This document shows, in pieces, positions 4,653 to 15,470 of a stretch of 64,000 nt of DNA. The translations under genes were made by a program, and so were the position numbers. Position 1 is the first letter of the stretch, and every line of letters begins with the position of its first letter. This DNA is from Maricaulis parjimensis (lineage in GTDB: Bacteria; Pseudomonadota; Alphaproteobacteria; Caulobacterales; Maricaulaceae), in assembly GCF_016817355.1 (NCBI RefSeq), contig NZ_JADOTT010000001.1, positions 732,072 to 796,071 on the forward strand, given 5' to 3'. The notes under the pieces are model-generated. The model made no database searches and was not told where the DNA came from. It was given only the letters and a program-made list of their open reading frames with translations.

Positions 4653-5933
4653 TCAGGCTTTTTCCTTCACCTTGTGGATGCCCAGCATGTCGAACACAGC
4701 CTTCTCGTAGAAGGGCTCGCCAACACCACGCCGGATCTTGCCGACGAAATAGCTTTCGAAGGCGACCTTGGCCATGTGGACCCAGCCGCCATCGGCGGAC
4801 CAGTTCACATTGCGGGGTGGGATTTGCGGCATGGCGACAAAGGCGACGCCGCCATCGCCGAAATCGGCCAGGCAGACCGCATTCCAGGTGGCCAGATTGT
4901 CGGCCGGTTTGCCGTCCAGGTCCGCGCGCAGATTGCGGGCTGTGGCGACCACCATGGACTCGATCATGAAACCGGTCTTCGGCACGCCGACCGGAACGGC
5001 GTAGTTTTCGACCGGCGGAATGGCGACGCAGACACCGATACCGAAGATATTCTTCCAGTTCGGATTGCGCTGGTGTTCGTCGACGAGGATGAAGCCGCGC
5101 GGATTGACCAGGCCTTCCACATCGCGGACCGCATCAATGCCCCGGAAGGCCGGCAGCATCATGGAATAGCCGAAGGGGAGTTCATGGGTCTTCTTGACCG
5201 AGCCGTCCTCTGCGACCTCCTCGACATGCATCACGCCGTCTTCAACCTTGGTGACGCGGGCCGACGTGATCCATTTGATGTGCCGGTTTCGCATCTCGCT
5301 TTCCAGCAGGCCCTTCGTATCGCCAACCCCGTCCAGTCCCAGATGGCCGACATAGGGTTCGGACGTGACGAAGGTCATCGGCACCTTGTCCCGGATCTTC
5401 CGCTTGCGCAGATCGGTCTCCAGGATCATCGCGAATTCATAGGCGGGGCCGAAACAGCTCGCGCCCTGGACCGCGCCGACAACAATCGGACCCGGATTCT
5501 CGACGAATTTCTGCCAGCTCTCATTGGAGTCGACCGCGTGATCGACATGGCAGATGGACTCGGTGAAACCGCCATGCGGGCCGAGGCCTTCGATTTCGTC
5601 AAAAGCGAGTTGGGGGCCGGTCGCGATGACGAGATAGTCATAGGTCAACCGCTCGCCATTATCGAGCTCGATGGCATTGTCTTCGGGAACGACCTTGGTG
5701 GCCGCAGCATGGACGAAGTCGATCCCCTTCTTTTTGAACATCGGGGCGAGTTCGACCTTGATCTGTTCCGGCTTGCGCCAGTCCACTGCCACCCAGGGGT
5801 TGGAGGGCGTGAAATGGAAGGTCGCGGAATCCGACACCACGGTGATGCGGTCTTCCTTGCGCAATTCCTTGCGCGCCTCCAGTGCCATGGGGACGCCGCC
5901 GAGACCGGCTCCGAGGACTACGATATGGGCCAT
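4653..5933 (-). CDS. sqr: Sulfide:quinone oxidoreductase, FAD-dependent
   Basis: A 426-residue flavoprotein of the pyridine nucleotide-disulfide oxidoreductase fold. The start at 5933 is chosen because CGGGAGGA stands 7 nt upstream and VVLGAGLGG, the FAD-binding Rossmann motif, begins at residue 5. An in-frame upstream extension exists but has no family-like sequence. Cysteines at residues 128, 160 (GASCFGPAYE) and 354 match the three redox cysteines known in sulfide:quinone reductases (Cys128, Cys160, Cys356 in the Acidithiobacillus enzyme); ATGP and PKTGFMIESM are also typical. The enzyme oxidises sulfide at the inner membrane, passes electrons to quinone and makes polysulfide or low-molecular-weight persulfide. 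It lies behind the persulfide-sensor gene at 5984, with which it probably forms an operon, and faces a rhodanese operon, so detoxification or energy use of sulfide is the likely role. Confidence 0.9.
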   Translation of the reverse strand: MAHIVVLGAGLGGVPMALEARKELRKEDRITVVSDSATFHFTPSNPWVAVDWRKPEQIKVELAPMFKKKGIDFVHAAATKVVPEDNAIELDNGERLTYDYLVIATGPQLAFDEIEGLGPHGGFTESICHVDHAVDSNESWQKFVENPGPIVVGAVQGASCFGPAYEFAMILETDLRKRKIRDKVPMTFVTSEPYVGHLGLDGVGDTKGLLESEMRNRHIKWITSARVTKVEDGVMHVEEVAEDGSVKKTHELPFGYSMMLPAFRGIDAVRDVEGLVNPRGFILVDEHQRNPNWKNIFGIGVCVAIPPVENYAVPVGVPKTGFMIESMVVATARNLRADLDGKPADNLATWNAVCLADFGDGGVAFVAMPQIPPRNVNWSADGGWVHMAKVAFESYFVGKIRRGVGEPFYEKAVFDMLGIHKVKEKA

Positions 5934-5983
5934 TGAAACTTCCTCCCGTTTGTCCGGCGCGTCCTTGTGGCGGCCGTTTGAAT

Positions 5984-6325
5984 TCAGGCCTTGCCCTCCA
6001 GGGCGTCTGCGGCCGTGCAGAATTGCGATTTCAGGTGATGCAGGATGCCGACGCAGCGCGGGTCCGCGATCGAGTAGTGGACTTGCAGCCCGTCCTTGCG
6101 CCCGGTGACCAGTTTTTCCGAACGCATTTTTGCCAGATGCTGGGACATGGCAGACTGGGACAGGTCGGCGACCTCGCACAGTTCGCCCACCGTCGCTTCG
6201 CCCATGGCGAGGCGGCACAGGATGAGCAGGCGTTTTTCATTGGCCAGCTGTTTGAGAAAACCGGCGGCTTCGCCTGCCTGGGATTGCAGATCCTGGATTT
6301 GCGGGTCGGGCGAGGTCAAACGCAC
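5984..6325 (-). CDS. ArsR-family regulator, BigR/SqrR-like persulfide sensor
   Basis: A 113-residue winged-helix repressor of the ArsR/SmtB fold, with recognition helix SQSAMSQHLAKMRSEKLV (residues 56-73). Cysteines at 37 (LILCRL) and 103 (SQFC) stand 66 residues apart, the same spacing as Cys41 and Cys107 of Rhodobacter SqrR. They sit in the same helices as the BigR pair, whose persulfide or tetrasulfide bridge releases DNA. Cys50 and Cys91 are extra. The metal-binding motif of classical ArsR (ELCVCDL) is not intact. The start is uncertain: GTG 6325 lies directly on the AGGAG, while TTG at 6319 has AGGAGG with 5-nt spacing and may be the true start. The gene precedes sqr and diverges from the rhodanese operon; it probably represses both until sulfide rises. 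Confidence 0.88.
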   Translation of the reverse strand: MRLTSPDPQIQDLQSQAGEAAGFLKQLANEKRLLILCRLAMGEATVGELCEVADLSQSAMSQHLAKMRSEKLVTGRKDGLQVHYSIADPRCVGILHHLKSQFCTAADALEGKA

Positions 6326-6330
6326 CTCCT

Positions 6331-6374
6331 GAATTAGTTGACACTAATTTAGAGAAGACTATATTAGGTGTCAA
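6331..6374. promoter_or_regulatory. Divergent overlapping promoters with two operator-like repeats
   Basis: Site 1 is a perfect inverted repeat AATTAGT-TGAC-ACTAATT at 6332-6349. Site 2 at about 6362-6374 reads, on the minus strand, TTGACACCTAAT, nearly the same as TTGACACTAAT in site 1. Each site contributes a consensus -35: TTGACA at 6338-6343 with TATATT at 6360-6365 (16-bp spacer) toward the rhodanese gene, and TTGACA at 6374-6369 with TAAATT at 6351-6346 (17-bp spacer) toward the regulator-sqr genes. Binding of the ArsR-type repressor at either repeat would therefore block both promoters. Confidence 0.65.
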
Positions 6375-6406
6375 TCATATTGTTGAACACGGCAGGAGCC
6401 CCTCCA

Positions 6407-6757
6407 ATGAGCCTTCGCGAACTTGATCCGAAAACCGTCCATGACGCCGTTCAGGCCGGAGAAGCCGTCATCATTGATGTGCGTGAGCCGCGCGAATTTG
6501 CAACCGAGCGCCTGCATGGCGCGTCCCTGCATCCGCTCTCGACCTTCGAGCCCAAATCCATTCCGGTCGACAAGACGCGCGATGTGATCCTGCAGTGTGG
6601 TTCCGGCAAGCGTTCCATGGACGCCCTGCAGCGCTGCGCCGCCGCCGGCGTCGACATCACCGCCCATCTCAAGGGTGGCCTCATGGCCTGGAAATCCGCT
6701 GGCCTTCCCACCGTTACGATCGACCCGGCGACGGGTCAGGTCATTGATCCGAAATAG
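6407..6757 (+). CDS. Rhodanese-domain sulfurtransferase
   Basis: A 116-residue single-domain rhodanese. ATG 6407 is preferred over an earlier in-frame GTG at 6368 because GGCAGGAG lies 8 nt upstream and the GTG would overlap the -10 region. The active loop is CGSGKRS with the sulfur-accepting Cys64; VIIDVREPREF and LKGGLMAWKSAGLP are the usual flanking motifs. It moves sulfane sulfur, for example from the persulfide made by Sqr to sulfite, cyanide or a protein acceptor, in the cytoplasm. It is the first gene of an operon continuing with a membrane-fusion protein (8 nt later), an RND pump and a small YgaP-like membrane protein, and it shares its promoter region with the persulfide sensor. Confidence 0.9.
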   Translation: MSLRELDPKTVHDAVQAGEAVIIDVREPREFATERLHGASLHPLSTFEPKSIPVDKTRDVILQCGSGKRSMDALQRCAAAGVDITAHLKGGLMAWKSAGLPTVTIDPATGQVIDPK

Positions 6758-6765
6758 GTGACATC

Positions 6766-7734
6766 ATGGCGACCGGCCTCATTCTCAGCCTCGCACTGGC
6801 AGCGGCCAGCCTGCAGACTGCCGACACTCACACGGTCGAGCAGACGGAAATCCCCGACCGCAAGGCGGTGTTCGCAACGGTCGAGAGTATCGACACGATA
6901 ACGGCGCGCGCCCGCATCGGCGGCACGATCGGCCAGTTGCAGGTCGATGAAGGGGATTCGGTTGAGGCCGGTGATGTCCTGGCTGTCGTCGTCGATGACC
7001 GTCTGGCGCCGCAGATTGCGGCGGCCAATGCCCAAGCCAATGCTTTCGCAGCCCAATTCTCCCAGGCCGAGATTGATCTGGAGCGCGCCGAGGACCTTCA
7101 CGAGCGGGGCATCTACCCCCAGGCCCGGCTCGATCAGGCGCGGACGCAGGTGGATGTTGTCAGCGGCCAGCTGGCCGCCGCTCGCCGCTCGCGGGATGTC
7201 CTGGTCCAGCAATCGCGTGAGGGCGATGTGCTCGCACCGGCCAGCGGCCGTGTCCTGGCTGTGCCCGTCACCTCGGGCAGTGTGATCCTGCCGGGTGAAG
7301 CCGTCGCCACGATCGCATCGGACCTTTATCTCCTCCGCCTGCGCCTGCCGGAACGCCATGCCCGCACGATCTCCGAAGGGGATCCTGTGGAGATCGGCAC
7401 GGCTGCCCTGGGTGGTGAAGTCGCGCCGACGGGCCGTATCCGCCAGGTCTATCCGCGTATCGAGGATGGCCGTGTCGTCGCCGATGCCGTCGTTGACGGG
7501 CTGGGTGACTTCTTCGTGGGTGAGCGCGTCCGTGTCTATGTCACCGTGGACGCTCGCGATGCGATTTTGATCCCGGCTGACTACATCTCCACCCGCTATG
7601 GTGTCGATTATGTGCGCCTGCAGCTGAGCAATGGCCATGATACGGAAATCGTGGTCCAGCGCGGTCTGGAGACATCGCAGGGTGTTGAAATCCTGAGCGG
7701 CCTGTCGGCCGGTGATGTCCTGGTGCGGCCATGA
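6766..7734 (+). CDS. RND efflux periplasmic adaptor (membrane fusion protein)
   Basis: A 322-residue adaptor, shorter than AcrA (~400), with an N-terminal hydrophobic signal over residues 1-20 and no lipobox. A biotinyl-lipoyl half motif (ARIGGTIGQLQVDEGDSV) is followed by a helical hairpin over about residues 85-145, then APASGRVLAVPV completing the lipoyl domain, and a beta-barrel. Start ATG 6766 follows AGGTGA. Its last 4 bp overlap the start of the RND gene, indicating translational coupling. It would link the RND pump to an outer-membrane channel, but no outer-membrane factor gene is in this operon, so it must borrow one or work without it. Confidence 0.88.
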   Translation: MATGLILSLALAAASLQTADTHTVEQTEIPDRKAVFATVESIDTITARARIGGTIGQLQVDEGDSVEAGDVLAVVVDDRLAPQIAAANAQANAFAAQFSQAEIDLERAEDLHERGIYPQARLDQARTQVDVVSGQLAAARRSRDVLVQQSREGDVLAPASGRVLAVPVTSGSVILPGEAVATIASDLYLLRLRLPERHARTISEGDPVEIGTAALGGEVAPTGRIRQVYPRIEDGRVVADAVVDGLGDFFVGERVRVYVTVDARDAILIPADYISTRYGVDYVRLQLSNGHDTEIVVQRGLETSQGVEILSGLSAGDVLVRP

Positions 7735-10700
7735 AGCTCGGTCTTTCCGGAAATCTCGCCCGCGCCTTCATCCGGTCGCCGCTGACGCCTCTCATCCTGA
7801 TGGCCGCACTGGCCATGGGTTTCCTGGCGCTGATGGTGATCCCGCGCGAAGAAGAGCCGCAAATCTCCGTTCCGATGGTGGATGTCATTGTGCGGGCCGA
7901 TGGCCTGCGCGCCACCGATGCCGTCGAACTGGTCACCGAACCGCTGGAAGCGATCATCCGCTCCATCAATGCGGTCGAGCACGTCTATTCCCAGACCGAG
8001 GATGACCAGGTCATGGTCACCGCGCGTTTCGATGTCGGCACGGATGCCGATGATGCGATCCTGCGCGTGCATGAACGCCTGCGCGCCAATATGGACCGGA
8101 TGCCGATGGGCATTCCGGAACCGCTCGTCGTGGGCCGCGGGATCAATGATGTCGCGATCGTCGCGCTTACCCTGTCGCCCCCTCCGGACCTGGCCGAGCG
8201 GTGGGACGACAATGCGCTTTACAATATCGCCGAGGAATTGCGGGCTTCGCTGATGTCGGTCGACGATGTCGGCCTGACCTATATTACCGGTGGCCGTTCG
8301 GACCAGATCCGTGTCGAGCCCGATCCTGAGCGCCTGTCGCAATACGGTGTGACCCTGCAACAGCTGGCGGGCCGTATCGCGGAAGCCAATCGCGCCTTCC
8401 CGGCTGGCCGCGTGAGCGCGGCCGACCAGACGCAAAGTGTCGTGGCGGGTCAGACGCTCCAGGGCATGCCCGATATCGGCCTGCTCCTCCTGACCACACG
8501 CGATGGCCGTCCGGTCTATGTCCGAGATGTCGCGGATGTCGTGATCGGTCCGGAACCGGCTGACTCGCGTGCCTGGATGCTGACGCGCGACGGCCATGAA
8601 GGCGCCTGGACGCGTACGCCGGCCGTCACCCTCGCCATTGCCAAGCGCGAAGGCGCGAACGCCGTTGTGGTGTCCGAGCACATTGTTGAGCGGCTCGAGC
8701 TTCTGCGTGGCAGCCTGATCCCGGAAGGTGTCGATGTCACCGTCACCCGGAATTACGGCGAAACCGCGAACGAGAAGGCCAATGAGCTTCTCTTCCACCT
8801 CGCTCTGGCAACGGTTTCCATCGTCCTGCTCGTGACCTTTGTCATCGGCTGGCGCGAAGGCCTCGTCGTCTTCGTGGTCATCCCGACGACCATCCTCCTG
8901 ACCCTGTTTGCTTCAAACCTGATGGGCTACACGATCAACCGGGTCTCGCTCTTCGCCCTGATCTTCTCGATCGGCATCTTGGTTGATGACGCCATTGTCG
9001 TGATTGAGAATATTGCCCGCCATTGGGGCATGAAAGACGAGCGTCCGCGCGTCCAGGCGGCTGTCGAGGCTGTGGCCGAAGTGGGTAATCCCACCATTGT
9101 GGCCACGCTCACCGTCGTGGCCGCGCTCCTGCCCATGCTCTTCGTGTCCGGCCTGATGGGCCCCTATATGGCGCCGATCCCGGTCAATGCATCGGCCGCG
9201 ATGATCTTTTCCTTCTTTGTCGCCATGGTGCTGACGCCCTGGCTGATGCTGGTCATAGCCGGCCGCCGCAAAGGGGATGTCCACGGTCATGCCGAGGGTC
9301 ATGAAGGCATTCTGGGCAAGGGATACCGGAAGGTCGCCGCCTGGGTGGTGCAGTCCCGCCGCAATGCCTGGATCCTGTTGCTCAGCGTGGGCGTGCTGAC
9401 CCTGGCCTCCATGTCCCTGTTCGGCTTCCAGGCCGTGACGGTCAAACTCCTGCCTTTCGACAACAAGTCGGAATTCCAGGTCATTGTCGACCTCCCCGAA
9501 GGTGCCACGCTGGAGCGGACGGAACGCGTGCTGATGGCCGCGGCCGACCGCCTCGCCGAACTGCCCGAAGCGACCCATATCCAGGCCTATTCCGGTACCT
9601 CGGCCCCGTTCAATTTCAACGGCCTGGTGCGCCATTATTATCTGCGCAGCCGTCCGGAACAGGGCGACCTCCAGGTCAATCTGGAAGCCAAGCACCATCG
9701 CGACCGGTCTTCCCACGAGATTGCGCTGGAAGCGCGTGAGCTTCTGGCGGATTTGGATGTGCCGGCCGGCACCAGCATCCGCATTGCGGAAATTCCGCCC
9801 GGACCGCCGGTGATCGCCACATTGCTGGCCGAGATCTACGGTCCCGATGCCGAAACCCGCCGGGCGGTGGCCCGCGAAGTCCGCAGCGTCTTCAACGAGA
9901 TCGACTATATCGTTGATACGGATGACAGTTTCGGCGAACCGCGCCCGCGTCTGCGCATTGCGATCGACCAGGACAGCCTGGAATATTTCGGCGTCCAGCA
10001 ATCGGATGTCTATGACACGATCGCGGCCCTGATCGGCGGCATGCCGGTGGGCTATTCCCACCGAGGCGAAGGCCGCAATCCGATCGAGATTGCCGTCGCC
10101 CTGCCGCGCGAGGATCGCAATTGGACCGAACGTCTCGCCTCAACGCCGGTTCCTGCCAACACGCTGCCGGGCAACCGGACCGTTGTGGAACTGGGCGATG
10201 TGGTGTCCGTGACGGAAGAGCCGGGCTCCTATCCGATCTTCCGCCGCGACGGCCGCTCCCTGGAAATGGTGATGGGCGAACTGGCGGGGGCTTTCGAGGC
10301 CCCGATCTACGGCATGTTCGCCGTCCAGGACGCCATTGCGGCCCATGACTGGGGTGATCTGCCCCAGCCGCAGATCCGCATGTATGGCCAGCCGGACAGC
10401 GATGACGAAGTCACCCTGCTCTGGGATGGCGAATGGGAGATCACCTATGTGACCTTCCGTGACATGGGTGCCGCTTTCATGGTGGCCCTGTTGGGCATTT
10501 ATGTCCTCGTTGTCGCCCAGTTCGGCTCCTTCCGGGTGCCGCTCATCATCCTAACGCCGATCCCGCTGACCTTCATCGGCATCATGCTGGGCCATTGGAT
10601 GTTCGGCGCGGCCTTCACGGCGACATCCATGATCGGCTTCATTGCCCTGGCCGGCATCATTGTTCGGAACTCCATCCTCTTGGTGGACTTCATCCGGCAC

Positions 10701-11000
10701 AGTGCCGGCAATGGCGAGCCCTTGCGGGAAACCCTGCTGAATGCCGGGGCGATCCGCTTCAAACCGATCCTGCTGACCGCTCTGGCGGCCATGATTGGTG
10801 CGGCGGTGATCCTGGGCGATCCGATCTTCCAGGGACTGGCGATCTCGCTCCTGTTCGGGCTGGCCTCGTCCACCCTGCTGACCGTGCTCGTCATCCCCGC
10901 CATCTACATCGTCTTCAAGGACGGTGACCAACCCTATCAACCCAAGACGCTGGCCAGCGAAGCTGAGACCAGTGGTTCCGAGCAAGGAGACCTCTCATGA
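7731..11000 (+). CDS. RND-family transporter of the sulfide operon
   Basis: A 1089-residue inner-membrane pump with the RND plan: one N-terminal helix, a large periplasmic loop, six helices, a second loop and six helices. The helix-4 acidic pair is present in SIGILVDDAIVVIENIA, while the helix-10 position that is usually AKN reads VRN in GIIVRNSILLVDFI, so Arg replaces the usual Lys. It belongs to the broad AcrB/hydrophobe superfamily but not clearly to a drug-pump subgroup. Start and stop each overlap the neighbouring genes by 4 bp. Co-transcription with a rhodanese and a YgaP-like protein under a persulfide sensor suggests export of a reactive sulfur compound or of a toxic by-product of sulfide oxidation; this is inference. 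Confidence 0.9.
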   Translation: MKLGLSGNLARAFIRSPLTPLILMAALAMGFLALMVIPREEEPQISVPMVDVIVRADGLRATDAVELVTEPLEAIIRSINAVEHVYSQTEDDQVMVTARFDVGTDADDAILRVHERLRANMDRMPMGIPEPLVVGRGINDVAIVALTLSPPPDLAERWDDNALYNIAEELRASLMSVDDVGLTYITGGRSDQIRVEPDPERLSQYGVTLQQLAGRIAEANRAFPAGRVSAADQTQSVVAGQTLQGMPDIGLLLLTTRDGRPVYVRDVADVVIGPEPADSRAWMLTRDGHEGAWTRTPAVTLAIAKREGANAVVVSEHIVERLELLRGSLIPEGVDVTVTRNYGETANEKANELLFHLALATVSIVLLVTFVIGWREGLVVFVVIPTTILLTLFASNLMGYTINRVSLFALIFSIGILVDDAIVVIENIARHWGMKDERPRVQAAVEAVAEVGNPTIVATLTVVAALLPMLFVSGLMGPYMAPIPVNASAAMIFSFFVAMVLTPWLMLVIAGRRKGDVHGHAEGHEGILGKGYRKVAAWVVQSRRNAWILLLSVGVLTLASMSLFGFQAVTVKLLPFDNKSEFQVIVDLPEGATLERTERVLMAAADRLAELPEATHIQAYSGTSAPFNFNGLVRHYYLRSRPEQGDLQVNLEAKHHRDRSSHEIALEARELLADLDVPAGTSIRIAEIPPGPPVIATLLAEIYGPDAETRRAVAREVRSVFNEIDYIVDTDDSFGEPRPRLRIAIDQDSLEYFGVQQSDVYDTIAALIGGMPVGYSHRGEGRNPIEIAVALPREDRNWTERLASTPVPANTLPGNRTVVELGDVVSVTEEPGSYPIFRRDGRSLEMVMGELAGAFEAPIYGMFAVQDAIAAHDWGDLPQPQIRMYGQPDSDDEVTLLWDGEWEITYVTFRDMGAAFMVALLGIYVLVVAQFGSFRVPLIILTPIPLTFIGIMLGHWMFGAAFTATSMIGFIALAGIIVRNSILLVDFIRHSAGNGEPLRETLLNAGAIRFKPILLTALAAMIGAAVILGDPIFQGLAISLLFGLASSTLLTVLVIPAIYIVFKDGDQPYQPKTLASEAETSGSEQGDLS

Positions 11001-11203
11001 CCCTTGGACGCGCAGTAATGATGTTTGCCGGCTTCATGGCCCTGTTGTCAGCGGTCCTGGCCTGGCTTGTGAGCCCCTGGTTCCTGCTGCTGACCGGCTT
11101 TGTCAGCTTGAACCTGATGCAGACCAGCGTCACGGGCTTTTGCCCCGCCGCGATGATCTTCAAGGCGATGGGCCTGCACGAAGGCAGCTGCGACTTCCGC
11201 TAG
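10997..11203 (+). CDS. Small DUF2892 (YgaP transmembrane-type) membrane protein
   Basis: A 68-residue protein with two hydrophobic helices (about residues 8-27 and 28-45) and the TGFCPAAMIFKAMGL segment common to the membrane domain of YgaP-like rhodaneses and stand-alone DUF2892 proteins. It overlaps the RND gene by 4 bp (ATGA). In YgaP a rhodanese domain and this membrane domain form one protein; here the rhodanese is encoded separately at the other end of the operon, as if a split YgaP had taken in an RND pump. Cys49 and Cys65 (GSCDFR end) are candidates for sulfur relay. It is the last gene of the operon, only 4 bp before the converging egtD stop. Confidence 0.85.
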   Translation: MTLGRAVMMFAGFMALLSAVLAWLVSPWFLLLTGFVSLNLMQTSVTGFCPAAMIFKAMGLHEGSCDFR

Positions 11204-11207
11204 CTTG

Positions 11208-12140
11208 TCAGGCCCGCTTGGGCCTCAGCACAGCCACCGCGAACAGCTGATCGGTGTCGGTGAGGAAATCGGCGATTTCCCAACCACCCCGGTCAGCGAT
11301 CGCCGCGAAGCCCTCGCGGGTGTATTTGCGGCTGTTTTCGGTGTGAATGCTTTCGCCCTTGGCAAAGCGGATCGCCTGCCCCGCCACGGTTACGGTCTGC
11401 GCCCGCTCACTGACCAGATGCATCTCGATCCGGCTGAGCTGCGCATTCCAGCGGGCTTCATGGCGGAAGGCTGACAGGTCGAAATCCGCCCCGATCTCCC
11501 GGTTCATCCGGCGCAGGAGATTGAGGTTGAAGTCGGCTGTTACGCCGGCCTGATCATCATAGGCGTCCACCAGCGTCGCCGTGTCCTTGACCAGGTCCAG
11601 ACCCAGGATCAGCGCCTCGATGCCCGGCCAGCGGCTCAGCCGGTCGAGCATGGCGGATGCTGTGTCATGCGGCAGATTGCCGATGGTCGAGCCGGGAAAG
11701 AACGCCGTCTTGGGTGCGTCGTCCAGGGCTTGCGGCAAGGTGATCTCACCGGTGAAGTCTGCCACGACTGGCCGGATCGGTGTGTCCGGATAGGCCTTTC
11801 GCAGATCTTCTGCCGTCTCTTCCAGAAAATCCGCCGAGATATCGACGGGAACATAGGCGCGCAGCCCGCTTGCCGCGTCCAGCAGGATGCGTGTCTTCAC
11901 ACTGGCCCCGCTGCCCAGTTCGACAAGGACTTGCCCGGGCTCCAGTACGGCGCTGAGGGCGTCGATCTGGTCCTTGAGGATCCCGGTCTCCGTCCGGGTC
12001 GGGTAGTATTCGGGCAATTGCGTGATCTGCTCGAAAATCGCACTGCCGTGCGTGTCATACAGCCATTTGCTGTCGAGCCATTTCGGCGAGGCTTGCAGCC
12101 CTTCCAGGGCCGACATCGCGAAGTCGCTATCGTGGATCAT
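11208..12140 (-). CDS. egtD: L-histidine N(alpha)-methyltransferase
   Basis: A 310-residue SAM-dependent methyltransferase close to the 321 residues of mycobacterial EgtD. Visible marks are YYPTRTETGIL (histidine-pocket tyrosine region), VELGSGASVKTRIL (SAM loop), FFPGSTIGNL, NLLRRMNREIGADFD and the late IHTENSRKYT containing the Glu and Ser that contact the histidine imidazole. It trimethylates histidine to hercynine, the first step to ergothioneine. ATG 12140 is used because it falls 13 bp after the egtB stop; its ribosome site is weak, and a second ATG at 12116 is possible. It forms an egtB-egtD operon. The C-S lyase for the last step is not in the window. Confidence 0.93.
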   Translation of the reverse strand: MIHDSDFAMSALEGLQASPKWLDSKWLYDTHGSAIFEQITQLPEYYPTRTETGILKDQIDALSAVLEPGQVLVELGSGASVKTRILLDAASGLRAYVPVDISADFLEETAEDLRKAYPDTPIRPVVADFTGEITLPQALDDAPKTAFFPGSTIGNLPHDTASAMLDRLSRWPGIEALILGLDLVKDTATLVDAYDDQAGVTADFNLNLLRRMNREIGADFDLSAFRHEARWNAQLSRIEMHLVSERAQTVTVAGQAIRFAKGESIHTENSRKYTREGFAAIADRGGWEIADFLTDTDQLFAVAVLRPKRA

Positions 12141-12153
12141 TGCGGTATCCAAG

Positions 12154-13398
12154 TCAGATATCCTTCGCCAGGCGCAGGCCCAGCATCTGCCAGCGTTGAT
12201 GGGGGTAGAAGAAGGTGCGGTAGCTCGGCCGCATCTGCGCGCGTGGCGTGGCACAGGACCCGCCGCGCAGGACCATCTGGTTGATCATGAATTTCCCATT
12301 GTACTCGCCGATAGCGCCGGCGCTGGGCTTGAAGCCCGGATAGGGGGAGAAGGCGCTTTGCGTCCATTCCCAGACATCGCCCCAAGTGCCGTGTCCAGGC
12401 AGGGGGCGGAACTGGTTCCGGTCTGCGAAATTCCCCTCGATGGGTGTGTCGCGGAACGCGATTTCGTGTTCGGCTTCGGTTGGAAGCCGGGCGCCGGCCC
12501 AGCGGGCATGGGCATCGGCCTCGTAATAGCTGACATGGACCACCGGTGCGTCCAGCGCGACTGGTTGCGGGCCGCGCAGCGTGTAAGACCACCATTCCCC
12601 GTCCTGTTGCCACCAATAGAGCGGGCTGTCCCAGTTCTCGCGCTCGCGCACTGCCCAGCCGTCCATCAGCCAAAGCTCTGGCGTTTCATAGCCGCCATCT
12701 TCCATGAATTCGATCCAGTCGCGGTTTGTGACAGCGCGGTTGGCGATCTGGAAGGCGGGCTGGAACAGGCGGTGGCGGGGGCTTTCACAGTCAAAGGCAA
12801 ACCCTGAACCGTCATGACCAATCCCGGTCAGGCCCTCGTCAAACCGTTGGAATTCGAGCGCAGGCGCTTCGGTCACGGGAAAGGGCTCAGGGTCCTTGTA
12901 GGCTGGCAGGAGCGGATTGAATGAGAGGCCGTGAAGCAGGTCGGTGACCAGGAGTTCCTGGTGCTGCATTTCGTGATGACAACCCAGTTCCGTCAAAGCG
13001 CAAATCTCGGGTCGACCGGTGGCCAACAGGTCAATCAGCGCGTCTTCGACATGGCGGCGATAATCGAGAACAGCGTCGAGCCCGGGGCGGGAAATCAGCC
13101 CGCGCCGGTCGCGCGCATGCCGCGGACCGGCCTGCACATAATAGGAATTGAACAGGACGGCGAAGCGCTCATCCGGTGAGGTGTAGCCGGGCAGGTTGGG
13201 CCGCAGGATGAATTCCTCGAAAAACCAGGTCGTGTGGGCCAGATGCCATTTGGCAGGGCTGGCATCCTCCATCGACTGGAGCATCATGTCCTCTGCGCTG
13301 AGAGGTTTCACGAGTTCCAGGGTTCGGGAACGGACGCTCGAAAAGAATTGGTTGACGTCCTGCGGGGCCAGGCTGTTGGGGCTGGCGGCCAGGCTCAT
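12154..13398 (-). CDS. egtB: Ergothioneine biosynthesis sulfoxide synthase
   Basis: A 414-residue non-heme iron enzyme with an N-terminal DinB-like four-helix domain, carrying the HXXXHXE iron site at His142, His146 and Glu148 plus His52, and a C-terminal formylglycine-enzyme-like fold ending with RGGSCATP and a GLRLAKD tail. It joins hercynine to a thiol (gamma-glutamylcysteine or cysteine) using oxygen. Which thiol is used cannot be read with confidence. ATG 13398 follows GAGGATGATCC. The product is an antioxidant thiol, which fits a genome segment rich in sulfur and singlet-oxygen defence genes. Confidence 0.93.
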   Translation of the reverse strand: MSLAASPNSLAPQDVNQFFSSVRSRTLELVKPLSAEDMMLQSMEDASPAKWHLAHTTWFFEEFILRPNLPGYTSPDERFAVLFNSYYVQAGPRHARDRRGLISRPGLDAVLDYRRHVEDALIDLLATGRPEICALTELGCHHEMQHQELLVTDLLHGLSFNPLLPAYKDPEPFPVTEAPALEFQRFDEGLTGIGHDGSGFAFDCESPRHRLFQPAFQIANRAVTNRDWIEFMEDGGYETPELWLMDGWAVRERENWDSPLYWWQQDGEWWSYTLRGPQPVALDAPVVHVSYYEADAHARWAGARLPTEAEHEIAFRDTPIEGNFADRNQFRPLPGHGTWGDVWEWTQSAFSPYPGFKPSAGAIGEYNGKFMINQMVLRGGSCATPRAQMRPSYRTFFYPHQRWQMLGLRLAKDI

Positions 13399-13577
13399 GG
13401 ATCATCCTCGGGGTCGCTGCCATGAGAAGGGTGATCCCCCATTCCAACGCGAAACGTTGCCGAGGGAAACCTTTCTCTCGAAAAAAGAGACAAGTGCCTG
13501 AATAGATGGCTTGCCACTGGCCGGTCGTCGACCTGAGATGGGCGCGTCCGGATTCAAATTCGTGTGAGGAGGGCGCG

Positions 13578-14519
13578 ATGACCCAATCTGTCTTTTCCGG
13601 CTGCATGCCGGCCCTGATGACGCCCTGCAATGCGGCCGGCGAGCCGGATTTCGCGGCTCTGGTCAAAACCGGCCAGGATCTGATGGCTGCCGGCATGGAT
13701 GCCGTCGTGTATTGCGGCTCCATGGGGGATTGGCCCCTGCTGACGGATGAGCAGCGCTGCGAAGGCGTGGATCGCCTGTGCGGGGCCGGCATTCCTGTCG
13801 TGGTCGGGACGGGTGCCCAGAACACGCAGCGCGCTGTTGCTATCGTCGAGCGGGCGGCCCAGGCCGGCGCGGCCGGGCTGATGGTGATCCCGCGGGTTCT
13901 GTCCCGGGGCATTTCACCCCAGGCGCAGCGAACCCATTTTGCCGCCGTACTGGGTGCGGCACCGGACCTGCCGGCGGTGATCTACAACTCGCCCTATTAC
14001 GGGTTCGAGACCCGGGCGGACCTCTTCTTCGACCTGCGCAAGGATCATCCCAACCTGATCGGGTTCAAGGAGTTTGGCGGGGCTGACTCGCTGAGCTATG
14101 CGGCCGAACACATCACCAGCGGGGATGACGCGCTCACCCTCATGGTGGGCGTCGATACCCAGGTCTTCCATGGCTATGTGAATTGCGGCGCGACCGGCGC
14201 GATTACCGGTGTGGGCAATGCCCTGCCGCGTGAAGTGCTTCGCCTTGTCGAACTGTCGAAGCGGGCGGCCGCGGGCGATGCGCAGGCACGGCGTCTCGCC
14301 CTGGAATTGAGCGAGGCCATGATGGTTCTGGCCACCTTTGATGAAGGGCCGGACCTTGTCCTCCACTACAAGCGTCTCATGGTGCTCGAAGGTCATGCTG
14401 AATATCAGCACCAGCTCTACGCGACGGACGCGCTGACCCCGTCCCAGCTGGCCTTTGTGGATGCAAGCTGGAAGCGGTTCCGCGACTGGTGGGCCAGCTG
14501 GCCGGGCGCGACGGATTGA
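13578..14519 (+). CDS. DHDPS/NAL-family lyase, candidate pyrroline-4-hydroxy-2-carboxylate deaminase
   Basis: A 313-residue TIM-barrel enzyme of the dihydrodipicolinate synthase family. ATG 13578 is set by GAGGAGGG just upstream. The Schiff-base Lys164 (GFKEFGG) and Tyr136 (YNSPYYG) are in place. The usual GTTGE loop reads GSMGDWP, indicating a substrate other than aspartate semialdehyde. Its stop is 9 bp before a hydroxyproline epimerase gene. In the trans-4-hydroxyproline pathway a DHDPS-family enzyme deaminates 1-pyrroline-4-hydroxy-2-carboxylate to 2-oxoglutarate semialdehyde, so that is the best guess. The oxidase and the semialdehyde dehydrogenase of the pathway are not in this window. 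Confidence 0.8.
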   Translation: MTQSVFSGCMPALMTPCNAAGEPDFAALVKTGQDLMAAGMDAVVYCGSMGDWPLLTDEQRCEGVDRLCGAGIPVVVGTGAQNTQRAVAIVERAAQAGAAGLMVIPRVLSRGISPQAQRTHFAAVLGAAPDLPAVIYNSPYYGFETRADLFFDLRKDHPNLIGFKEFGGADSLSYAAEHITSGDDALTLMVGVDTQVFHGYVNCGATGAITGVGNALPREVLRLVELSKRAAAGDAQARRLALELSEAMMVLATFDEGPDLVLHYKRLMVLEGHAEYQHQLYATDALTPSQLAFVDASWKRFRDWWASWPGATD

Positions 14520-14528
14520 GGCCGTGCC

Positions 14529-15470
14529 ATGCGGGTCATCGACAGCCATACGGGCGGCCAGCCGACGCGGGTGCTCATCGAGGGCGGTCCGGAGCTGGGC
14601 CGGGGGCCCCTGTCGGAACGTCTGCAGGTTTTCGCGGAGCGCTTTGATGATTATCGCCGGCGCTGTGTGTTGGAGCCGAAATGCTCAGACGCCATGGTGG
14701 GCGCACTGTTGTGCGAGCCGGAGCATGAGGGTGCCGCGGCAGGCGTGATCTTTTTCAACACGTCCGGATATCTGGGCATGTGCGGGCACGGCACGATTGG
14801 TCTGGGCGCGACCCTGGCCTGGCTGGGCCGTATGGCACCGGGTTGCCATGTTCTGGAGACGCCGGTCGGGCCAGTGGCGCTCGATCTGATCGATGCCAAT
14901 ACGGTTTGCTTCGAGAATATCGAAAGTGATTGCCTGTCACTTGATGTCACGCTGGATGTGCCGGGTCTGGGCCCGGTACGGGGTGATATCGCCTGGGGTG
15001 GAAACTGGTTCTTCCTGGTCGATGCGAAGCAGCTGGGTGAGGACGGGCTCGATCCGTCCCGGATTGAAATCCTGACCCGCAAGAGCTGGGCGGTCAGGCG
15101 GGCGCTGGCGGACCAGGGCTTCACCGGCCGCGAGGGTGCCGAGATCGACCATATCGAGGTGACCACAGCACAGGCAGGGGAAGGGGCGGATAGCCGCAAT
15201 TTCGTACTCTGTCCCGGTGGTGCCTATGATCGCTCACCCTGCGGAACAGGGACCAGCGCCAAACTGGCCTGTCTCGCCGCACGCGGTCAGCTCGAGCCGG
15301 GCCGGGACTGGGTCCAGGAGAGCATTATCGGAAGCCGCTTCACTGCGCGTTATCGGCCGGGCCGCGCCGGCATTATTCCCAGTGTGACCGGCCAGGCGCA
15401 TGTTTTCGCCGATACGCGCATCCTGACCGATGCGACGGATCCTTTCGGTCTGGGGATTCCGGAGGGCTAG
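14529..15470 (+). CDS. Proline racemase family, 4-hydroxyproline 2-epimerase
   Basis: A 313-residue cofactor-independent epimerase. Both catalytic cysteines are present: Cys85 in MCGHGTIG and Cys238 in SPCGTGTS. Retention of both argues for an epimerase or racemase rather than the trans-3-hydroxyproline dehydratases, which replace the first one. RVIDSHTGGQPTR at the N-terminus is the family opening. It would convert trans-4-hydroxy-L-proline to cis-4-hydroxy-D-proline in the cytoplasm. It is paired with the DHDPS-family gene upstream (9 bp), supporting use of collagen-type or algal hydroxyproline as carbon and nitrogen source. Confidence 0.88.
   Translation: MRVIDSHTGGQPTRVLIEGGPELGRGPLSERLQVFAERFDDYRRRCVLEPKCSDAMVGALLCEPEHEGAAAGVIFFNTSGYLGMCGHGTIGLGATLAWLGRMAPGCHVLETPVGPVALDLIDANTVCFENIESDCLSLDVTLDVPGLGPVRGDIAWGGNWFFLVDAKQLGEDGLDPSRIEILTRKSWAVRRALADQGFTGREGAEIDHIEVTTAQAGEGADSRNFVLCPGGAYDRSPCGTGTSAKLACLAARGQLEPGRDWVQESIIGSRFTARYRPGRAGIIPSVTGQAHVFADTRILTDATDPFGLGIPEG

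Follow-up and report, generated by a model that had tools for sequence, protein, structure and literature searches.

A divergon in Maricaulis parjimensis joins a SqrR-type repressor and sulfide:quinone oxidoreductase to an RND pump of a distinct clade, a candidate exporter of sulfane sulfur

To our knowledge, there is no settled route by which membrane sulfide oxidisers discharge zero-valent sulfur. One locus of Maricaulis parjimensis raises the question whether an RND pump could provide it. The original prediction had sqr and arsR in the window (the whole stretch of 64,000 nucleotides analysed) face genes for a rhodanese, a periplasmic adaptor (MFP), an RND permease and a DUF2892 protein. All six genes are located as claimed, sqr and arsR on the minus strand. 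A SqrR-type dithiol repressor, a sulfide:quinone oxidoreductase (SQR), a rhodanese, a YgaP-type membrane domain and an RND pump indeed make up one divergon.

The sqr gene (4653-5933, minus strand, ATG at 5933, stop codon ending at 4653) encodes an SQR of 426 residues. The three predicted redox cysteines, Cys128, Cys160 and Cys354, are all present, together with Cys302. The closest solved structure is 3sz0 (502 bits across residues 2-425), which we take to be the sulfide-quinone reductase of A. ferrooxidans. With three redox cysteines and full-length similarity, the protein belongs with the 3sz0-type SQRs, presumably the class named 'type I'. Cys128, Cys160 and Cys354 are present in 44, 44 and 42 of 45 linked SQR ORFs, respectively. 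On the plus strand, a single-domain rhodanese with active-site Cys64 occupies 6407-6757; its start is most likely ATG 6407, and the frame is open from 6368. It matches PF00581 with 47 bits, and among solved structures 1yt8 is best (52.2 bits) and the YgaP rhodanese domain 2moi is second (44.5 bits). The DUF2892 protein (10997-11203, plus strand, 68 residues) has a YgaP-like TM domain (PF11127, 41.5 bits, cut-off 25.3) and Cys49 in the motif TGFCPAA. A fold search with it gave a single, uninformative match (E 6.1). YgaP holds a rhodanese and a PF11127 TM domain in one protein; here they are separate proteins of one operon. The pair is not a YgaP orthologue, but it may function as a split YgaP.

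The arsR ORF (6325-5984, minus strand) encodes the repressor, with Cys37, Cys50, Cys91 and Cys103. In our own reading, translation more likely starts at TTG 6319, which follows AGGAGG by 5 bases, than at GTG 6325, so the residue numbers may drop by two. The SqrR-type pair Cys37/Cys103 is present as predicted and aligns with the cysteines of 13ct/6o8l, an entry we take to be SqrR, and with those of HlyU. The first cysteine belongs to the DNA-binding part and the second to the C-terminal helix, the dithiol arrangement of SqrR/BigR/YgaV repressors. The spacing of 66 is the same as that of BigR C42/C108 (PMC5823870) and sHdrR C50/C116 (PMC12423496) in the available parts of these papers. Cys37 is present in 69 of 73 linked ArsR ORFs, 67 of which also have a cysteine in the C-terminal stretch; the exact position of Cys103 is kept in just 40 of the 73. 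The protein scores 82.1 bits against the general model NF033788 (cut-off 55). Assignment as a BigR equivalog was rejected (NF040642, 67.6 bits versus a cut-off of 155). HlyU, SqrR and YgaV score above SmtB, NmtR and CzrA. By analogy with characterised relatives, persulfide or polysulfide would trigger release of this ArsR from DNA.

A putative shared operator region (6333-6375) contains TTAGTTGACACTAA at 6334-6347 and the inverted half ATTAGGTGTCAAT at 6363-6375. The left arm TTAGTTGACACTAA has a single occurrence in the 3.35 Mb genome, even at one mismatch, and is conserved in relatives, with 9 of 13 intergenic stretches containing it. We also read two putative promoters here, one for the rhodanese-pump operon (6338-6365, plus strand; -35 TTGACA at 6338-6343, -10 TATATT at 6360-6365, spacer 16) and one for arsR-sqr (6346-6374, minus strand; -35 TTGACA at 6374-6369, -10 TAAATT at 6351-6346, spacer 17). 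The SqrR-type repeat ATTC-N8-GAAT, as given in the available parts of the literature, is absent from the 25 top-ranked repeats. The recovered repeats of the window type are TTAGT-N4-ACTAA and ATTAG-N6-CTAAT, and a further repeat, TATAT-N12-ATATA, occurs in 17 of 67 regions. Regulation of the divergon by sulfane sulfur appears well supported at the sequence level.

The MFP (6766-7734, plus strand, 322 residues) scores 122.4 bits against TIGR01730 (cut-off 94.9), and the RND permease (7731-11000, plus strand, 1089 residues) scores 510 bits against PF00873. MFP and RND overlap by 4 bases, as do RND and DUF2892, so the plus-strand genes look like a single transcription unit. The permease shares with the HAE-1 drug pumps AcrB, AcrD and CmeB the fold (TM 0.84 with AcrD and 0.81 with AcrB) and the ACR_tran domain with the TM4 Asp pair (D419/D420, the same DD motif as in the aligned drug pumps), and is about 21-22% identical to HAE-1 pumps over the fold alignment. 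However, it falls below the NCBIfam RND subfamily cut-offs, both for HAE-1 (TIGR00915, 278.5 versus 940.35 bits; NF033617, 420.8 versus 1250 bits) and for HME metal pumps of the CusA/CzcA type (TIGR00914, 275.7 versus 701.45 bits). In place of the HAE-1 relay Lys it has Arg979, which aligns with Lys of CmeB, AcrD and BpeF; we take this Lys to be the proton relay residue K940 of AcrB. Across 148 clade members the relay position is Arg in 141 (motif not found in 7), whereas 20 control RND pumps have Lys in 7 and Asn in 3 (motif not found in 10). The clade separates from 20 other RND pumps, and judged on these sequence features the pump is a member of a distinct RND clade. Neither MFP nor RND contains cysteine. 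Cysteine depletion as a sign of sulfur cargo was dropped, because the signal is weak: control RNDs average 1.65 Cys and the clade groups 0.29 to 1.12. A defence-system scan gave no match for pump and rhodanese and generic HTH matches alone for ArsR.

The gene order extends beyond this strain, a point on which the original prediction turned. It is exact in 7 of 9 RND loci of the same genus or family, and the set recurs far outside; of the other two loci, one has the same genes with an ambiguous ORF call and one is without the partners. The RND is absent from 3 of 8 other genomes of the genus. In an even draw within the window's own class, 18 of 192 genomes carry an RND orthologue, and PF11127, matched in 71 of the 192, is matched in all 18 (Fisher 3.6e-9; Fisher values here ignore relatedness). 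Eight of the 10 even-draw genomes with window-type SQR have the RND.

Neighbours were labelled with HMMs built from the window proteins and neighbours, cut at E 1e-3, and a Pfam check of the labels covered ten neighbour proteins. Neighbour counts cover loci with at least 4.5 kb of sequence upstream of RND and 1.5 kb downstream (1 of 14 omitted in the order-comparison set). Within 5.5 kb of the even-draw orthologues (2 of 17 omitted), DUF2892 is found at 12 of 15 loci, ArsR at 10, rhodanese at 5 and SQR at 4. Around control RND pumps (14 from orthologue-bearing genomes, 5 from the own genome and 1 from G171, which is without the orthologue; 1 of 20 omitted), the same distance holds ArsR at 1 of 19 loci and DUF2892, rhodanese and SQR at none. 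The best 80 matches by RND similarity (L002-L081, several Bradyrhizobium among them) include 53 alphaproteobacterial loci with enough flank (15 of 68 omitted), with ArsR at 46, DUF2892 at 43, SQR at 36, rhodanese at 25, thioredoxin at 20, a persulfide-dioxygenase-like gene at 10 and TauE at 7. The five named loci of these 80 from other classes (7 of 12 omitted) have DUF2892 at 2, ArsR at 1 and SQR and rhodanese at none. L015/L109, L026/L152 and L029/L155 are, judging by the equal lengths of their contigs, each very likely one locus sampled twice. The distant loci were hand-picked, mostly on long contigs, from part of the matches. One set has 24 loci with 43-46% identity (2 omitted) and the other 16 with 34-43% (none omitted); some few come from the class to which the window belongs, and L193 is from a separate list. 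DUF2892 is found at 15/22 and 9/16 of them, rhodanese at 10/22 and 8/16, and SQR at 4/22 and 6/16. Sulfur genes accompany the RND clade in several lineages. DUF2892 and ArsR are its steadiest partners; SQR is frequent, not obligate, and was rejected as an obligate partner because 11 of the 15 even-draw loci are without it within 5.5 kb. In a sister branch of the clade (20 more loci at 45-47% identity from the top of the match list, 4 omitted), the four partners are absent near the pump in 16 of 16 loci, so the RND protein is not bound to sulfur everywhere. Plasmid copies of the module occur in Paracoccus denitrificans PD1222 and Azospirillum brasilense; on plasmid 1 of PD1222 a bigR-like operon lies near a DUF2892-MFP-RND run (PDEN_RS23390-RS23380). 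The 21 kb examined there contain no window-type SQR: the best HMM score is 54.6, compared with 755-772 in Shinella and Asticcacaulis.

The original prediction also held that an RND pump set between a stand-alone rhodanese and a YgaP-type membrane domain was not, to its author's knowledge, a described sulfide-response module. As a claim that RND pumps are new to such modules this is too strong: two papers precede it, as their available parts show (PMC5358917, PMC12423496). In the first (2017), operon Dsui_3440-3443 of Azospira suillum PS comprises an unknown protein, an RND pump, SQR and MFP. Expression of this operon is high while H2S is being oxidised, and Bar-seq fitness data single it out (the available part leaves the direction unstated); its deletion leaves the H2S oxidation rate unaltered. 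Three further RND pumps are induced as well under H2S, the DUF2892 gene Dsui_0042, outside the operon, is about 10-fold up, and the authors interpret the pumps as stress and metal-sulfide export (PMC5358917). RND, SQR and MFP stand together as in the window, the pumps being compared by description only. However, the Azospira gene order is seen in none of the examined loci, and in the available text rhodanese has no occurrence and the operon description has no ArsR. In the second (2025), dithiol ArsR regulators seemingly also control RND efflux pump genes, besides sqr, sox, pdo, rhd, shdr, TauE and YeeE genes (PMC12423496). RND genes near sHdrR/SqrR-type regulators take up a single sentence of its available part, which gives no pump clade or operator, and its main text does not mention DUF2892, a gene that the window has. 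We found no description of the rhodanese-MFP-RND-DUF2892 set or of the RND pump clade in the literature searched.

In E. coli, as far as the available text goes, YgaV regulates ygaP and sulfide derepresses it, so that, as in the window, a dithiol ArsR repressor stands over a rhodanese and a TM domain; the ygaVP operon is apparently without SQR or RND (PMC9774250). The two domains fused in E. coli YgaP are encoded in the window by separate genes flanking MFP and RND. SqrR controls sqr and a rhodanese gene in R. capsulatus, again from the available text (PMC9995734). The bigR operon (Xylella, Agrobacterium) and SqrR systems have the same sensor type and a sulfur transferase. The bigR operon, in the part of the source available, also encodes a dioxygenase fusion, Blh, and a sulfite transporter related to TauE (PMC5823870), whereas both are missing from the window divergon and neither is labelled within 5.5 kb of RND. 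A persulfide-dioxygenase homologue (55%) lies on another contig of the same M. parjimensis genome, so export would not be the sole exit for sulfane sulfur. A SoxZ search of this genome gave no match, and its control likewise gave none.

The gene set, the cysteines, the shared operator repeat, the conservation and the distinct pump clade are visible in the sequence. The reading we favour, with moderate confidence, is a sulfane-sulfur stress module, derepressed by sulfane sulfur, whose pump extrudes sulfane-sulfur species. Polysulfide or persulfide would accumulate, from SQR-oxidised sulfide or an external source, and would cross-link Cys37 and Cys103 of ArsR. Release of the repressor from the one operator between the operons would then turn on both. 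SQR would pass sulfide electrons to quinone and form sulfane sulfur, which the rhodanese and the DUF2892 protein, as counterparts of YgaP's two domains in separate proteins, would hand to the membrane, and RND-MFP with a TolC-type channel encoded elsewhere in the genome would expel the product. The likeliest cargo would be amphiphilic or hydrophobic sulfane sulfur (long polysulfides, S8, organic polysulfanes), with either the membrane or the periplasm as the site of uptake by the pump. Both the relay through the DUF2892 protein and sulfane sulfur as the cargo are what we infer.

Adjacency of the sulfide and pump operons by chance deserves next to no credence. Partners are missing at L153, L158 and throughout the sister branch, but conservation across genera and classes, neighbour enrichment, the Fisher value and the conserved, genome-unique operator arm contradict it; by order, operator arm and enrichment over control pumps, the association is more than chance. 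A general role in envelope stress or multidrug efflux, in which sulfane sulfur merely induces the pump and the cargo is lipophilic toxicants or damaged envelope components encountered during sulfide stress, is unlikely. The RND fold is nearest AcrD/AcrB/CmeB, and the unlinked sister branch shows that it is usable elsewhere. MexR controls an RND pump of Pseudomonas. Sulfane sulfur is sensed by regulators of the MarR family, MexR among them (PMC9495516, PMC11211675), and several Azospira RND pumps are up under H2S (PMC5358917), according to the available parts of these papers. Yet the clade is distinct from 20 other RND pumps, and DUF2892, rhodanese or SQR are frequent neighbours in several lineages, unlike at the 19 control pumps.

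We regard as improbable the export of a small sulfur anion or adduct, such as sulfite, thiosulfate or a rhodanese-made thiocyanate carried by the YgaP-type domain. Rhodanese and DUF2892 do share an operon here, and in the available text the TM domain of YgaP shows a response to SCN- and is a proposed exporter of it (PMC4730233), while a TauE-related sulfite transporter lies in the bigR operon (PMC5823870). However, TauE-type genes stand beside the pump at 7 of 53 loci from the best 80 RND matches and at 2 of 15 even-draw loci, which would make the RND redundant for sulfite. Amphiphilic cargo is, moreover, the rule for RND pumps. Removal of metals or metal sulfides building up with H2S, proposed for the H2S-induced Azospira pumps (PMC5358917, available part) and in keeping with a repressor of the ArsR family, is very improbable. 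It was dropped as the main reading, since the permease scores 275.7 bits against the CusA/CzcA-type cut-off of 701 and ArsR is nearer HlyU, SqrR and YgaV than SmtB, NmtR and CzrA; the TM4 motif DD, matching the aligned drug pumps, also argues against it.

Returning to sulfane-sulfur export, many other bacteria carry a similar gene set, and on that ground the pump is a good candidate exporter of surplus reactive sulfur. Tentatively, the dedicated RND clade could be the missing zero-valent-sulfur exporter, controlled by a persulfide-sensing repressor: rhodanese and the DUF2892 protein would load SQR-made sulfane sulfur into the membrane or periplasm, and RND-MFP-TolC would extrude it as polysulfide, S8 or organic polysulfanes. 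A conserved, sensor-linked pump clade beside SQR, rhodanese and a YgaP-type domain is a concrete candidate for sulfur export that can be tested genetically, with P. denitrificans PD1222 and A. brasilense as tractable carriers of the pump module. DUF2892 proteins would thereby gain a likely functional partner.

The divergon at 4653-11203 comprises six genes, as read from open reading frames and profile searches of the window (G000:C1:732072-796071 of a 3.35 Mb genome). The sqr gene (5933-4653) and the ArsR repressor gene (6325-5984) lie on the minus strand. The plus-strand genes encode, in order, a single-domain rhodanese (6407-6757), the RND adaptor (MFP, 6766-7734), the RND permease (7731-11000) and a 68-residue DUF2892 protein (10997-11203), a member of PF11127, 'YgaP-like TM'. 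The 4-base overlaps at the adaptor/permease and permease/DUF2892 junctions point to a single transcription unit for these three genes.

The solved enzyme 3sz0 matches Sqr over its full length (502 bits), and the three redox cysteines named in the original prediction, Cys128, Cys160 and Cys354, are all present. They are kept in 44, 44 and 42 of 45 linked SQR ORFs, respectively. The SqrR-type pair proposed for the ArsR protein is likewise borne out: Cys37 and Cys103 align, in the alignments shown, with cysteines of the closest solved proteins, HlyU (5znx, 3jth), 13ct/6o8l, which we take to be SqrR, and YgaV (3cuo). The score against the NCBI BigR model is under its cut-off. Cys37 is found in 69 of 73 linked ArsR ORFs and the exact Cys103 position in 40; Cys37 together with any cysteine from alignment column 95 on is found in 67. 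Cys64 of the rhodanese is kept in 35/36 linked ORFs and Cys49 of the DUF2892 protein in 70/70. The YgaP rhodanese domain is the second-best solved relative of the rhodanese, and the DUF2892 protein is predicted, at a mean pLDDT of 86.6, to fold into three helices, of which one is short and the others long. Both YgaP domains thus have counterparts in the operon, but here they are separate proteins with the pump genes in between.

The arsR-rhodanese intergenic region holds two TTGACA hexamers on opposite strands, inside an inverted repeat with arms TTAGTTGACACTAA (6334-6347) and ATTAGGTGTCAAT (6363-6375). With -10-like boxes at spacers of 16 (plus strand) and 17 (minus strand), these are putative promoters of both sides. 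Among 13 intergenic stretches, one of which (L146) was misplaced and has neither arm version, the left arm is identical in nine (window, L145, L147-L152 and L063), and TTAGTGTTTACTAA takes its place in three (L157, L002 and L057). A repressor needing the left arm would control the divergon and little else, because this 14-mer occurs once in the whole own genome with up to one mismatch allowed; the reversed 14-mer, used as control, does not occur there. A second repeat type, TATAT-N12-ATATA, often directly 3' of a TTGACTA box, is found in 17 of 67 divergent intergenic regions (shuffled mean 0.1). It lies, operator-like, upstream of the pump operons of L004-L007, L011, L012, L016, L018, L022, L023, L029, L030, L038, L044, L053, L054 and L111.

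Next to the divergon, and convergent to the DUF2892 gene with a gap of 4 bases, are egtD and egtB of ergothioneine synthesis (11208-13398, minus strand; TIGR03438, 375.1 bits, cut-off 290.9; TIGR03440, 547.7 bits, cut-off 360). Among the loci examined, an adjacent pair beside the pump recurs only in the closest relative, L145; L149 has a weaker egtD match (43%). Further on (13506-15467), a gene for a dapA-like product (90 bits against a cut-off of 206) and, following it, one for a protein resembling 4-hydroxyproline epimerase (416 bits against 450) may belong to hydroxyproline catabolism.

At E <= 1e-150, the RND permease is found in 54 of 150 genomes of the order, including five of eight other genomes of the genus (absent in three) and four from other genera of the family. 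In this survey it is absent from at least 17 family members; the 76 further genomes without a match are counted but not itemised. The predicted gene order is conserved outside the strain: SQR and ArsR leftward, then rhodanese, MFP, RND and DUF2892 rightward, is exact in seven of the nine loci that make up all genus and family matches. One of the seven, L150, has an extra SQR-like ORF downstream. L146 has the full gene set, with one ORF call ambiguous, and L153 has no partner gene near the RND gene.

In an even draw of the class, 18 of 192 genomes carry an RND orthologue, all among the 71 with a PF11127 match; in these 71, identities are 62-100% for the orthologues and at most 32% for the next, among the matches listed. 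Window-type SQR is found in 10 of the 192, eight of which also carry the RND gene. Within 5.5 kb of the orthologue, for the 15 with enough flank of the 17 besides the window's, DUF2892 is present in 12, ArsR in 10, rhodanese in five and SQR in four. The control was 20 other RND pumps (14 from orthologue-carrying genomes, five from the own genome and one other); in the 19 with flank, DUF2892, rhodanese and SQR are each absent and ArsR is present once. Fisher values, which ignore relatedness, are 8e-7 for DUF2892, 2e-4 for ArsR, 0.01 for rhodanese and 0.03 for SQR. Among the best 80 loci by RND similarity, the 53 alphaproteobacterial ones with flank have ArsR (46), DUF2892 (43), SQR (36), rhodanese (25), thioredoxin-2 type (20), OMF (13), persulfide-dioxygenase-like (10) and TauE (7) neighbours; the five with flank from elsewhere have OMF (3), DUF2892 (2) and ArsR (1), with neither rhodanese nor SQR.

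Three loci, L002 and L057 of Aliiroseovarius and L157 of the same class as the window, encode permeases 77-78% identical to the window's, closer than those of Marinicauda in its own family (71-72%). They keep ArsR-MFP-RND and have no SQR, rhodanese or DUF2892 nearby. The L157 permease sits inside the genus/family branch of the tree; L002 and L057 are outside the tree's sample. Horizontal transfer with reduction is likely.

In a FastTree phylogeny of 104 RND proteins, a branch with support 100 separates 84 clade members from 20 controls, a split partly expected as the members were chosen by similarity. The TM4 pair Asp419 and Asp420 is invariant in 32 aligned sequences. Arg979 aligns with the relay-motif lysine of CmeB, AcrD and BpeF; a motif search places arginine there in 141 of the 148 clade members and gives no motif match in the other seven; the 20 controls have lysine (7), asparagine (3) or no motif match (10). 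The predicted permease structure has a full AcrB-type fold (mean pLDDT 85.2), nearest to AcrD and AcrB at 21-22% identity. The permease sequence scores below every listed NCBIfam cut-off for RND subfamilies.

The original prediction held that an RND pump between a stand-alone rhodanese and a YgaP-type membrane domain was not a known kind of sulfide-response module. This is too strong, since the pairing of an RND pump with sulfide-response genes is in print. PMC5358917 describes the operon Dsui_3440-3443 of Azospira suillum PS (unknown protein, cation/multidrug efflux pump, SQR and RND adaptor), suggested by Bar-seq fitness data and highly expressed under H2S-oxidising conditions. Three other RND transporters also increased, and a DUF2892 gene elsewhere rose about 10-fold, its deletion causing a minor delay. 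Strains deleted for the SQR operon oxidised H2S at an unaltered rate, and the authors propose stress and metal-sulfide export. According to PMC12423496, RND efflux pump genes also appear to be among the targets of dithiol ArsR regulators. In open-licence literature, mostly the openings of abstracts, we found no description of the pump clade, of DUF2892 as a partner of RND pumps or of a gene set made up of rhodanese, MFP, RND and DUF2892; a direct search there for DUF2892 with RND surfaced PMC5358917 alone.

In the most likely mechanism, by analogy with SqrR, BigR and YgaV, sulfane sulfur, which SQR generates, derepresses both sides through the sensor and their shared operator. Rhodanese and the DUF2892 protein would pass it on, and the pump would expel a sulfane-sulfur product together with an outer-membrane channel whose gene lies elsewhere. 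Such removal by the pump is a tentative reading, somewhat less likely than not. The recurrent thioredoxin, persulfide-dioxygenase-like and TauE neighbours support a general role in sulfane-sulfur detoxification and do not single out the cargo. The own genome also has a persulfide-dioxygenase-like gene away from the divergon (L223, G000:C12:233736-234596), 55% identical to one inserted in the L063 divergon.

In a sample of the phylum, 139 of 397 genomes have an RND match at E <= 1e-150, with identities of 58-77% in the window's class and lower bands from 48% to 34%, mostly in other classes. At 43-46% identity, 22 of 24 loci have flank, with DUF2892 in 15, ArsR in 11, rhodanese in 10 and SQR in four. 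At 34-43% (16/16 with flank, one locus drawn from the order survey), DUF2892 and ArsR each occur in nine, rhodanese in eight and SQR in six; one example runs ArsR, OMF, MFP, RND, DUF2892, rhodanese and, further on, SQR, all rightward. Arrangements vary: Shinella has ArsR leftward, then SQR, DUF2892, MFP and RND rightward; Asticcacaulis has DUF2892 and SQR leftward, then rhodanese, MFP, RND and ArsR rightward; Azospirillum TSH58 has DUF2892 leftward, MFP, RND and rhodanese rightward, then ArsR leftward. The pump also occurs, at E <= 1e-150, in 53 plasmid records. On plasmid 1 of P. denitrificans PD1222 (L199 3719-12159), a DUF2892-MFP-RND run lies close to a bigR-like operon, with cytochrome c and cytochrome b genes between the two; the bigR-like operon encodes an MBL-fold protein, DUF2892, YeeE, DUF6691 and a TIGR01244 sulfur transferase and has a convergent ArsR gene with both cysteines.

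One or more branches of the pump clade sit among different neighbours, because in a sister branch of 20 further loci at 45-47% identity (L203-L222) DUF2892, ArsR, rhodanese and SQR are each absent from all 16 with flank. A protein of about 135 residues upstream of the RND gene is common to 19 of these 20, and a Pfam scan of one member returned no name. The function of this protein could hint at the ancestral cargo of the pump.
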